DNA of 62,474 nt from Mycobacteriales bacterium (lineage in GTDB: Bacteria; Actinomycetota; Actinomycetes; Mycobacteriales; SCTD01): NCBI GenBank assembly GCA_040902655.1, contig JBBDWV010000032.1:1-62474 (forward strand), given 5' to 3'. The notes beneath the pieces are model-generated. The model worked only from the letters and a program-made list of their open reading frames with translations. It did not search any database and was not told the origin of the DNA. The translations under genes and the position numbers were made by a program. How positions within the stretch are numbered: the stretch's first letter is position 1; each line of letters begins with the position of its first letter. Positions 41,902 through 45,089 of the stretch are shown here, in pieces.

Positions 41902-42249
41902 CTACGCGGCCACGTCGGCCTTGCGGGGCCGGCCGCGGGGGCGCTTGCGCGGGACGACGACGCCGGCCACGACCAACTGGCCGCCCCACACGCCCCACGG
42001 CTCACGCCGGTCGAGCGCACCGGCCAGGCACGCCTCGCGCAGCGGGCACGGCAGGCACAGCGCCTTCGCGTCTTCCACGTCGCCGGGTGCCTCGGCGAAC
42101 CACAGGTCCGGGTCGGCGGTCCAGCACGGCAGGTCCGCGTCGGTGCCGCAGCGGGTTCCCGGAGCGGCGGTCGGGTGGGCGGTCGGCTCCGTAGAACCGG
42201 CGATGGGGTGGGCGGTCGGCTCCGCAGAAGCGGCGGTCGGGGCGAGCAT
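41902..42249 (-). CDS. whiB7: WhiB7-type redox-responsive transcription factor
   Basis: A 115-residue iron-sulfur protein. The WhiB core has the four Cys: one in the DLPCW segment, then CLPC and EAC, after an N-terminal Cys in TRCGTD. The turn is EPWGVWGGQ. The C-terminus RKRPRGRPRK is the AT-hook that marks WhiB7 and sits next to sigma-A at AT-rich promoters. WhiB7 turns on intrinsic antibiotic resistance genes. A long leader with an upstream ORF and terminator precedes it, and it follows uvrD2 as in mycobacteria. Confidence 0.93.
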   Translation of the reverse strand: MLAPTAASAEPTAHPIAGSTEPTAHPTAAPGTRCGTDADLPCWTADPDLWFAEAPGDVEDAKALCLPCPLREACLAGALDRREPWGVWGGQLVVAGVVVPRKRPRGRPRKADVAA

Positions 42250-42332
42250 CGTCGGTCACCTTCGATCTGGTTCGACCCGGTGGGGCCCTGGTCCTTGCAA
42301 GGGGTCGGGGCGGGTGAGCCCGAAGCGGGAGG

Positions 42333-42377
42333 AAAAAGCAACGAGGCCGCGGATCCCGTGTCGGGTTCCGCGGCCTC
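42333..42377 (-). terminator. intrinsic terminator/attenuator in the whiB7 leader
   Basis: On the minus strand a perfect 11-base stem GAGGCCGCGGA/TCCGCGGCCTC, extended inside by CCGAC/GTCGG-type pairs, is followed by GTTGCTTTTT. It lies between the upstream ORF stop (42400) and the whiB7 start (42249), so it can only act on whiB7 transcription. Confidence 0.85.
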
Positions 42378-42399
42378 GAGGCGCTGTTGGTCTGACAAA

Positions 42400-42735
42400 T
42401 CAGACCGGTGCACCTCGAGGTGGAGAACCCGGGAGATCGGCATTGCGGACGCCGGCGAACGCGGCCCGCACAGCAGCGGGCGTCACGGCGGCGGGCATCG
42501 CGACAGCGGGCGTCACGGCGGCGGCCCGCACAGCAGCGGGCGTCACGGCGGCGGCCCGCACAGCAGCGGGTGCACCGGTACGAGGCGCCGCCGCCTCGTG
42601 TGCCGCAGCGGACAGCCGCGCTTTGCGAGCCGCCGCCCGACGCGCGGCCTCGTCCGACAGCTGCGTCCAGGAAAGCGGGGGCGCCGCGTAGGCGGACACG
42701 CCGTCGACGGGCCGGATCGCACGGATGCTCTCCAT
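42400..42735 (-). CDS. upstream ORF in the whiB7 leader
   Basis: A 111-residue Ala/Pro/Val-rich ORF starting MESIRAIRPVDGVSAYAAPP after GGGAGGTGG. Its C-terminal half consists of 10-residue repeats (VRAAAVTPAA). The stop lies 23 bases before the terminator stem. In mycobacteria, translation of a short whiB7 uORF controls attenuation. This one is much longer, but its strong ribosome-binding site and position suggest the same job. It may have no protein function. Confidence 0.7.
   Translation of the reverse strand: MESIRAIRPVDGVSAYAAPPLSWTQLSDEAARRAAARKARLSAAAHEAAAPRTGAPAAVRAAAVTPAAVRAAAVTPAVAMPAAVTPAAVRAAFAGVRNADLPGSPPRGAPV
42461..42580. repeat. four 30-bp tandem repeats inside the whiB7 upstream ORF
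   Basis: Units start at 42461, 42491, 42521 and 42551. The first and third are identical, the second is a variant, and the fourth is identical over its first 20 bases. Three of the four contain CCCGCACAGCAGCGGG, which can fold into a 5-base-stem hairpin. The 30-base period keeps the reading frame. Confidence 0.85.
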
Positions 42736-42787
42736 GTCGTCCACCTCCCTCGCCTGGTCCGCTGCCGGGGGAACCCGGTCACGAGCG

Positions 42788-42826
42788 AAGGTAGAGGTCG
42801 TACGGCGCAGGGGCAACCGGTTTATT
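42788..42826 (-). promoter_or_regulatory. whiB7 promoter with AT-rich upstream box
   Basis: On the minus strand, AATAAA is followed by -35 TTGCCC (42811-42816), a 17-base spacer and -10 TACCTT (42788-42793). An AT-rich patch next to the -35 is what WhiB7 needs to activate its own promoter. The box overlaps the uvrD2 stop codon. Confidence 0.65.
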
Positions 42827-44993
42827 GCGACGACTGCGCGCCGACCAGGCCGAGCACGTCCTCGCCGTACTTGTCGAGCTTGGCCTGGCCGATCCCCGGG
42901 ATCCGGACGAGCGCCGCGACGTCGGCCGGGCGCTGCTCGGCGATCGCGGTCAGGGTCGCATCGGTGAACACGCAGTACGCCGGCTGGCTGAGCTCTTTGG
43001 CCCGGCCGGCCCGCCACTCGCGCAGCGCCTCGAAGAGCTGCTCGTCACGGTCGGCGGGACAGTCGGCGCAGCGGCCGAGCTTGCGGTCGACGGCCACCAC
43101 CAGCGAGGCGCCACACACCCGGCAGGGCACCGGACCCGAGCGCTCGCGGCGGGCCGCGCGAGCCGACCCGGTCGCCCGCACGGGGCGGGCCGAGGCCGTG
43201 TGCAGCCCGTCCAGGAAGCGCGACGGCCGGCGGCTGCCACGCCCCCCGGGTGATCGCGAGAGCGCCCACGACAGGAAGAGGGAGAACCGGGCTCGGGTGA
43301 CGCCGACGTAGAGCAGCCGGCGCTCCTCCTCGACCGCCGCCGGGGTGTCCGCGTGCACCAGCGGCATCGTGCCGTCGACCAGCCCGACCAGGAAGACAGC
43401 GTCCCACTCGAGGCCCTTGGCAGCGTGCAGCGACGCGAGCGTCACCCCCTCGACGCTCGGCGCGTGCTGCGCGGCCGCGCGCTCCTCGAGCTCGGCGACC
43501 AGCTCACGCAACCCGGCGGCCGGCGCGGCCGCGGCCAGATCGTCGGACGGATCGCCGGGCAGGCCGCCGGTCGCACCGCCGGCCAGGTCATCGGCCAGCC
43601 GGTGCAGCGCGGCCAGGGACTCCCAGCGTTCGCGGGTGGCGCCGGCACCGGCCGGCGGAGCGTCGCGCTCCCAGCCGAGTCCGGAGCGCAGCACGTCGGC
43701 CACCAGGTCGGCCAGCCCGGCCGGCGCGTCGGGGTCCGCCGCCCGGCCGGCGCCGCGCAGCAGCAGGATCGCCTCGCGTACCTCCTTGCGGTCGAAGAAA
43801 CGCTCGCCGCCGCGGACGAGGTAGGGCACCCCCGCGTCGGCGAGCGCGGCCTCGTACGCCGCGGACTGCGCGTTGACTCGGTAGAGGATCGCGATCTCGC
43901 TGGCCGGGGTGCCGGCGGCGATCAGCTCGCGGCAGCGGGCCGCGACCGAGGCCGCCTCGGCCGGCTCGTCGTCGTGCTCGGTGAAGATCGGCTCCGGGCC
44001 GGGCGGCTGCTGGGCGACCAACTCGAGCCGGGCCTGCGACGCCCATGCCTGCGACGTCCCGGCCTGCGACGCCCGGGCCTGCGCGATGACGCCGTTCGCC
44101 AGGGCGACGACCTGCGGCGTCGAGCGGTAGTCGCGCACCAGCCGCACCTCGGTGGCCTGCGGGTAGCGCTGACGGAAGCGCAGCAGGTGGTCCGGGGTCG
44201 CGCCGGTGAAGCTGTAGATCGTCTGCTGGGCATCGCCGACGACGCAGAGGTCGTCACGGTCGCCGAGCCAGGCGTCGAGCAGCCGCTGCTGCAGCGGCGT
44301 GACGTCCTGGTACTCGTCGACGACGAAGCAGCGGTACCGGGCGCGGAACTCCTCGGCGACCCCGGCGTGCTCCTCGAGCGCCGCAGCCGTCAGGAGCAAC
44401 AGGTCACCCCAGTCGGCGAGGCCCTGCGCGGACTTCAGGTCGACGTACGCGCCGTAGACCTGCGCGACGACGGCCGGGTCGTACGGGCCCTGCCGTCCGG
44501 AGCGGGCCGCTGCGGCGGGGTAGTCCTCGGGGCCGACCAGGCAGCTGGCCGCCCACTCCAGCTCCGACAGCAGGTCGCGCAACTCGCTGGTGCCGGGCCG
44601 CAGCCGGGCCCGCGCGGCGGCGTTGGCCACGAGTCCGAAGGTGTTCTCGACCAGCCGCGGCGGCGCACCGCCGATGACCCGGGGCCAGAAGTAGCCGAGC
44701 TGCTTTCTCGCGGCGGAGTGGAAGGTGCGGGCCTGCACGCCGCCGACCCCGAGCGCACGCAGCCGGGTGCGCATCTCCCCGGCGGCCCGGGCGGTGAAGG
44801 TGACCGCGAGCAGCGCCGAGGCCGGCGTCACCCCGGACAGCACGGCGTAGGCGGCCCGATGGGTGATCGTGCGGGTCTTGCCCGTGCCGGCGCCGGCCAG
44901 GATGCAGACCGGGCCCCGCACGGCCACCGCGGCGGCCCGCTGCTCGGGGTCCAGGGCCGCCAGCACGCCGTCGGGGGTCAGGTCAGCGCTCAC
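42822..44993 (-). CDS. uvrD2: UvrD2-type ATP-dependent DNA helicase with HRDC domain
   Basis: A 723-residue superfamily 1A helicase. Motif I is ILAGAGTGKTRTI, motif II CFVVDEYQDVTPLQ, then GDAQQTIYSF, SLHAAKGLEWDAVFLVG and LLYVGVTRAR. A tetracysteine motif (CRVCGASL and CADC) and a C-terminal HRDC domain (about 640-720) identify UvrD2 rather than UvrD1/PcrA. GTG at 44993 is divergent from mrx1 with a 96-base gap. It unwinds DNA in repair. A short repeated insert (ASQAGTSQAWASQA) sits near motif IV. Confidence 0.94.
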   Translation of the reverse strand: MSADLTPDGVLAALDPEQRAAAVAVRGPVCILAGAGTGKTRTITHRAAYAVLSGVTPASALLAVTFTARAAGEMRTRLRALGVGGVQARTFHSAARKQLGYFWPRVIGGAPPRLVENTFGLVANAAARARLRPGTSELRDLLSELEWAASCLVGPEDYPAAAARSGRQGPYDPAVVAQVYGAYVDLKSAQGLADWGDLLLLTAAALEEHAGVAEEFRARYRCFVVDEYQDVTPLQQRLLDAWLGDRDDLCVVGDAQQTIYSFTGATPDHLLRFRQRYPQATEVRLVRDYRSTPQVVALANGVIAQARASQAGTSQAWASQARLELVAQQPPGPEPIFTEHDDEPAEAASVAARCRELIAAGTPASEIAILYRVNAQSAAYEAALADAGVPYLVRGGERFFDRKEVREAILLLRGAGRAADPDAPAGLADLVADVLRSGLGWERDAPPAGAGATRERWESLAALHRLADDLAGGATGGLPGDPSDDLAAAAPAAGLRELVAELEERAAAQHAPSVEGVTLASLHAAKGLEWDAVFLVGLVDGTMPLVHADTPAAVEEERRLLYVGVTRARFSLFLSWALSRSPGGRGSRRPSRFLDGLHTASARPVRATGSARAARRERSGPVPCRVCGASLVVAVDRKLGRCADCPADRDEQLFEALREWRAGRAKELSQPAYCVFTDATLTAIAEQRPADVAALVRIPGIGQAKLDKYGEDVLGLVGAQSSQ
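44032..44076 (-). repeat. 15-bp tandem repeats inside uvrD2
   Basis: Three and a half 15-base units starting GCCTGCGACG encode xSQAx repeats in the helicase. The insertion looks recent and is in frame, in a surface loop after the motif IV region. Confidence 0.7.
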
Positions 44994-45089
44994 GGCAGCA
45001 GTCTCCCAGCCGCTGCGGTCGGGAAGTCCGCGGGCGTGCCGGCTGTTGATGCCGGACGTCGCGTCCCCGCCATCCCTGGAGCACTCCGC

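Follow-up and report, generated by a model that had tools for sequence, protein, structure and literature searches.

A ribosome-mediated transcription attenuator very probably controls whiB7 in an uncultured actinobacterium with an alanine-rich repeat array in its leader

The whiB7 gene of an uncultured actinobacterium of the order Mycobacteriales lies in a window of 62,474 nucleotides (the whole stretch of DNA that was analysed; contig JBBDWV010000032.1 of assembly GCA_040902655.1) and is very probably controlled by a ribosome-mediated transcription attenuator. The whole system is located on the minus strand, where the end of a uvrD2-like gene is followed by a promoter, an upstream open reading frame (uORF), a terminator and whiB7 (Table 1). 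A Rho-independent terminator precedes the main ORF, and overlapping uORF and terminator sequences form an antiterminator, as in the whiB7/wblC attenuators; in addition, a uORF that appears to be translated is placed between promoter and terminator, and the predicted promoter has a putative AT-rich WhiB7 element beside its -35 box. The attenuator parts, their geometry, the two competing structures, covariation and conservation were all obtained by computation. The mechanism is that of established whiB7/wblC attenuation; the system is of an ordinary kind and highly conserved, and unusual in the repeat array within its uORF.

Table 1. Features of the whiB7 leader and its flanking genes, with positions in the window
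Feature	Position	Strand	Details
uvrD2-like helicase (UvrD and HRDC domains)	42822..45080 (stretch scanned)	-	Pfam PF00580, PF13361, PF00570; stop codon 42824-42822
Predicted promoter	42788..42826	-	AATAAA-CCGG-TTGCCC-N17-TACCTT; AT-rich AATAAA 42826-42821; -35 TTGCCC 42816-42811; 17-nt spacer; -10 TACCTT 42793-42788
Regulatory uORF, 111 aa	42400..42735	-	ATG 42735-42733; TGA 42402-42400
Four in-frame 30-nt repeats	42451..42570	-	PAAVRAAAVT (42570-42541), PAAVRAAAVT (42540-42511), PAVAMPAAVT (42510-42481), PAAVRAAFAG (42480-42451)
Antiterminator	42362..42432	-	terminator 5' arm paired with the uORF 3' end (42431-42400) and the bases after its stop; tip GGTCTGA-TTTG-TCAGACC, 42406-42389
Intrinsic terminator	42332..42378	-	17-nt arms 42378-42362 and 42358-42342, loop ACA, then TTGCTTTTTC
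whiB7, 115 aa	41902..42249	-	ATG at 42249; Pfam WhiB PF02467, E 5e-14; ribosome-binding site AAGGTGA, about 42262-42256

The uvrD2-like gene lies upstream of the leader, and its stop codon is overlapped by the AT-rich promoter element. Three sets of sequences were used for comparison: upstream DNA from about 110 loci of order-level genomes and 80 named loci, 147 actinobacterial whiB7 leaders (named set included) for the uORF analyses, and 87 order-level leaders having a uORF for the antiterminator. A matching promoter architecture was found upstream of 142 of the 147 uORFs, with 0.6 expected in shuffled sequence. WhiB matches occur in 121 of 121 genomes (the source genome and 120 related genomes from its order), and among the relatives searched the product of the source gene, which has its ribosome-binding site directly upstream, matches WhiB7-type proteins best. 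Its C-terminus contains an RGRPR AT-hook and EPWGVWGG, as is typical of WhiB7. The N-terminal part of whiB7 contains a 33-nt tandem repeat in two copies (unit like AEPTAHP.., 42165-42230, minus strand); the source species thus has in-frame repeats in the uORF and again at the start of whiB7.

A uORF of 111 codons behind a strong ribosome-binding site, as described in the first-pass annotation, was confirmed: the Shine-Dalgarno sequence GGGAGGTGG is strong and located 5 nt upstream of the ATG. From the end of the uORF stop, it is 21 nt to the terminator stem and 150 nt to whiB7. An intrinsic terminator after the uORF had been recognized as well, but the gap had been given as 23 nt and the stem as 11 bp, which is too short; the stem consists of 12 bp, an A.A mismatch and 4 bp, closed by the loop ACA and followed by TTGCTTTTT. 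A simple pattern scanner reported just a 5-bp piece of it. The terminator folds with -33.9 kcal/mol compared to -14.9 +/- 2.8 in dinucleotide shuffles (z -6.8), and a terminator like GAGGCCGCGGAACCCG...CGGGATCCGCGGCCTC is nearly invariant in relatives and common to nearly all loci. In most relatives, a uORF with a ribosome-binding site stops 12-30 nt before the stem. The uORFs of the 147 leaders have a median length of 86 codons (quartiles 67 and 104), and 22 of them exceed the 111 codons of the source uORF, so that the contrast drawn earlier with a short mycobacterial uORF is weak. Within the genus, both the position of the uORF and its C-terminal end DLPGSPPRGAPV are conserved.

The central element of the leader, which was missing from the first-pass annotation, is an antiterminator that contains the uORF stop codon. 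The last ten uORF codons include CGGGTTC and CCTCGAGGTGC, whose pairing partners GAACCCG and GCGCCTCGAGG belong to the spacer and to the 5' arm of the terminator; the TGA in the tip hairpin is the stop codon itself. The stretch of 71 nt from 42432 to 42362 folds with -45.6 kcal/mol, compared to -22.3 +/- 2.9 in dinucleotide shuffles (z -8.1), a value reached by 0 of 200 shuffles. Folding further revealed that an RNA ending at 42362 folds wholly as antiterminator, and that the terminator alone forms when the left strand is masked, as if a ribosome occupied the stop codon. In the complete RNA at equilibrium, the terminator together with the tip hairpin is preferred (-57.3 versus -46.8 kcal/mol), and the full-length fold keeps the terminator in 83 of 87 loci; readthrough must therefore be kinetic and decided during RNA synthesis, as is usual for attenuators. 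None of the 4227 Rfam covariance models matched, up to E = 1. Among the 87 leaders compared, the uORF end pairs with the terminator arm in every case (at least 6 cross pairs), with z below -2 in 74. In 53 of the 87 loci, the apical helix has 6 or more Watson-Crick pairs; swapping the right strands among loci lowers this number to a mean of 9.8 (maximum 15). Helices of at least 5 pairs occur in 38 different sequences, e.g., GGTCTG/CAGACC, GCGCTG/CAGCGC and CTGGGCT/AGCCCAG. Since exchanging the right strands cuts pairing and the helix exists in so many sequences, the apical helix shows direct covariation. The longer helix between uORF end and terminator arm also exceeds the exchanged pairs (21 versus 10.3, maximum 15). 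The proposal that ribosome position controls attenuation of whiB7, made before the antiterminator had been noticed, is thereby supported.

We infer the kinetics of the switch, its inducing signals and the effect of the repeats as follows. RNA polymerase would initiate next to the uvrD2 stop codon, where the promoter lies, and ribosomes would translate the uORF during transcription. During normal translation, the leading ribosome at the uORF stop, which must melt the antiterminator hairpin to reach this position, would cover the left strand of the antiterminator, thereby allowing the terminator to form, and termination would fall about 85 nt before whiB7. If an antibiotic or a lack of charged tRNA stalls the ribosome more than about five codons ahead of the left strand, the antiterminator could nucleate at the stop-codon hairpin and zip into the terminator 5' arm before the 3' arm exists, and the polymerase would read into whiB7. 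The alanine-rich repeats may add places at which a shortage of alanyl-tRNA or a drug stalls the ribosome, judging by their composition only. The array lies wholly upstream of the antiterminator, and a ribosome stalled inside it would therefore leave the switch free.

In the middle of many uORFs, an in-frame motif GGN-ACC-GGT-NTG-YCC (peptide GTGLS or GTGLP) is present in Streptomyces, Frankiales-like MAGs, Nocardia and others (e.g., loci L006, L049, L152 and L192). Its core GGT[ACG]TG[CT]CC occurs in 45 of the 147 uORFs, always in frame, with 1.2 expected after codon shuffling. The wobble bases of the motif are kept even where the amino acids differ, and the constraint thus seems to act on nucleotides or codons and not on the peptide alone. 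The source uORF is without the motif and has ACC GGT GCA CCC at the seemingly corresponding place. A role as pairing partner of the terminator region was rejected, as a perfect complement exists there for just 6 of 48 motif hexamers. Resemblance to an RNA polymerase pause site (GGNNNNNNTNYG) showed only a modest excess (86 of 147 uORFs versus 66 in codon shuffles), and in a study of M. tuberculosis a strong pause consensus was not found (PMC10937400). The motif could possibly be a drug-stall site or a polymerase pause.

The four 30-base repeats described by the first-pass annotation are in phase within the uORF, and units 1 and 2 are identical; Tandem Repeats Finder (TRF) reports a period of 30, 3.7 copies and 85% matches, with a score of 178 on the uORF alone. 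The array is absent from the six other uORFs of the genus that were read (61-79 codons), most of which end in PGSPPRGAPV or a close form, several with a short alanine run before it. The array is thus an in-frame expansion of the variable uORF interior that is recent and specific to the species. An origin as a mobile or genome-wide element was rejected, the main other similar site in the genome (L002) being a low-complexity match to an unrelated stretch, rich in alanine and proline, within a longer ORF. About 19 of the 147 uORFs contain tandem repeats that differ in sequence from the array, with periods of mostly 12, 15, 18, 27 or 30 nt; the uORF interior appears free to grow in frame. In the whiB7 uORFs of loci L033, L071, L094 and L012, unrelated tandem repeats with periods of 15 and 18 nt are likewise in frame, which suggests recurrent in-frame slippage in the whiB7 uORF.

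The reading that we lean towards, if by a small step, is that the attenuator works and the repeats are neutral, having arisen by replication slippage where the uORF is GC-rich and unconserved; they would be tolerated there as multiples of three upstream of the antiterminator. The identity of units 1 and 2 would reflect a recent duplication; the sister species do without the array, the periods of the other tandem repeats are mostly divisible by three, and the repeat region folds no better than shuffled sequence. It has to be set against this that the array gives the source uORF the highest alanine count among the 147 uORFs (38 codons) and falls in a codon range that is mildly alanine-enriched elsewhere, which is still compatible with neutrality. 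By alanine fraction, the source uORF is fifth highest of the 147, behind mycobacterial-type leaders.

More tentatively, and on balance doubtfully, the repeats could be an adaptive alanine-codon sensor, the number of which sets the strength of stalling on alanyl-tRNA shortage before the antiterminator. The high alanine count would fit this, alanine-rich stretches are also found in mycobacterial and Streptomyces whiB7/wblC uORFs, and the literature links WhiB7 with alanine starvation. The amino-acid composition of the uORF is said, in work by Poulton from 2024, to determine whiB7 expression. Across genera, a mild enrichment of alanine is seen 17-48 codons ahead of the stop (genus-weighted excess +0.028; 3 of 200 rotations as large), which fits alanine sensing weakly. 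However, this excess is small, any upstream stall would suffice and extra codons may add little. The composition bias of a GC-rich genome also speaks against a sensor; UvrD2 next door, from which alone background alanine use was taken, contains 18% alanine and one 111-aa stretch with 30 alanines, and sister species manage with uORFs of 7-25% alanine. Neutral slippage is the simpler account. A related reading, that the tandem array serves as an evolvable dial in which slippage alters the number of alanine codons and thereby the sensitivity of whiB7 to alanyl-tRNA or drugs while the switch is untouched, is unlikely. Tuning through alanine codons is nevertheless plausible, and more so than tuning through hairpins.

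It is improbable that the repeat hairpins themselves regulate, for example as an early protector helix or by slowing ribosomes. It is literally true, as had been noted, that most repeats can form hairpins: units 1, 2 and 4 can each fold into CCCGC(6 nt)GCGGG or a hairpin much like it, with a stem of 4-5 bp. However, the repeat region folds with -62.8 compared to -62.6 +/- 3.0 in dinucleotide shuffles (z -0.06; 93 of 200 are no less stable), and its hairpins are thus what any such composition yields. The absence of the array from the other species of the genus likewise lends no support to a regulatory role of the hairpins. A possible 1:2 helix exists at this locus only: ACCGGTGCACC (42569-42579, before the repeats) is perfectly complementary over 11 bp to GGTGCACCGGT (about 42404-42414, uORF end), both on the minus strand, a complement reached in none of 100 codon shuffles. 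The same palindromes occur in both of its strands, however, and a conserved protector helix was rejected, as it is absent in relatives and an unusual complement is found in 1 of 147 loci, the source locus, which is below chance at that cut-off. It is extremely improbable that the 111-codon ORF simply encodes a small protein, followed by a terminator of its own, and is no regulatory uORF: it has a strong ribosome-binding site, an ATG and a length in the small-protein range, but the peptide matches no Pfam or NCBIfam family, is unconserved apart from the end coding for the antiterminator, and its stop is similarly placed relative to the terminator in relatives.

The ribosome-mediated attenuator proposed here shares the gene, the uORF, the terminator directly after it, the antiterminator and the AT-rich patch beside the -35 box with the whiB7/wblC attenuators of Mycobacterium and Streptomyces (Burian and Thompson 2018; Lee, Lee and Roe 2022; Dinan 2014, PMC4128351), which are induced by many ribosome-targeting drugs and by amino-acid starvation (PMC11550727, PMC10727445, PMC13393426, PMC4128351). 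Drug stalling within the whiB7 uORF was stated as never directly tested (PMC12121999). Unlike those attenuators, the source uORF, from an uncultured actinobacterium, carries a recent alanine-rich array of four 30-nt units. In the mycobacterial ilvB1 leader (PMC13236596) and in trp-type attenuators, a ribosome at the uORF stop likewise masks an antiterminator strand, which is freed by a stall at control codons; however, these are branched-chain or Trp codons and a biosynthetic operon is controlled, whereas the target here is a regulator and the role of alanine would be an extrapolation from composition. The uORF attenuators of ARE-ABCF genes and vmlR (PMC12421871, PMC9226507) are alike in that an antibiotic stall on the uORF flips the terminator to the antiterminator, but the Streptomyces ARE5 genes (PMC12421871) are different genes with uORFs of few codons and a stall at the start codon.

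WhiB7 sets intrinsic resistance to many ribosome-targeting drugs across Actinobacteria. The set of 147 leaders fixes the constrained parts of its control region, namely promoter, uORF end, stop-codon hairpin and terminator, and identifies the uORF interior as a part in which in-frame variation is free. It thereby becomes testable whether the length of the uORF and its alanine content have been tuned or are neutral. If the array does act as a dial, phase-variable or species-level changes in uORF length would retune intrinsic resistance.
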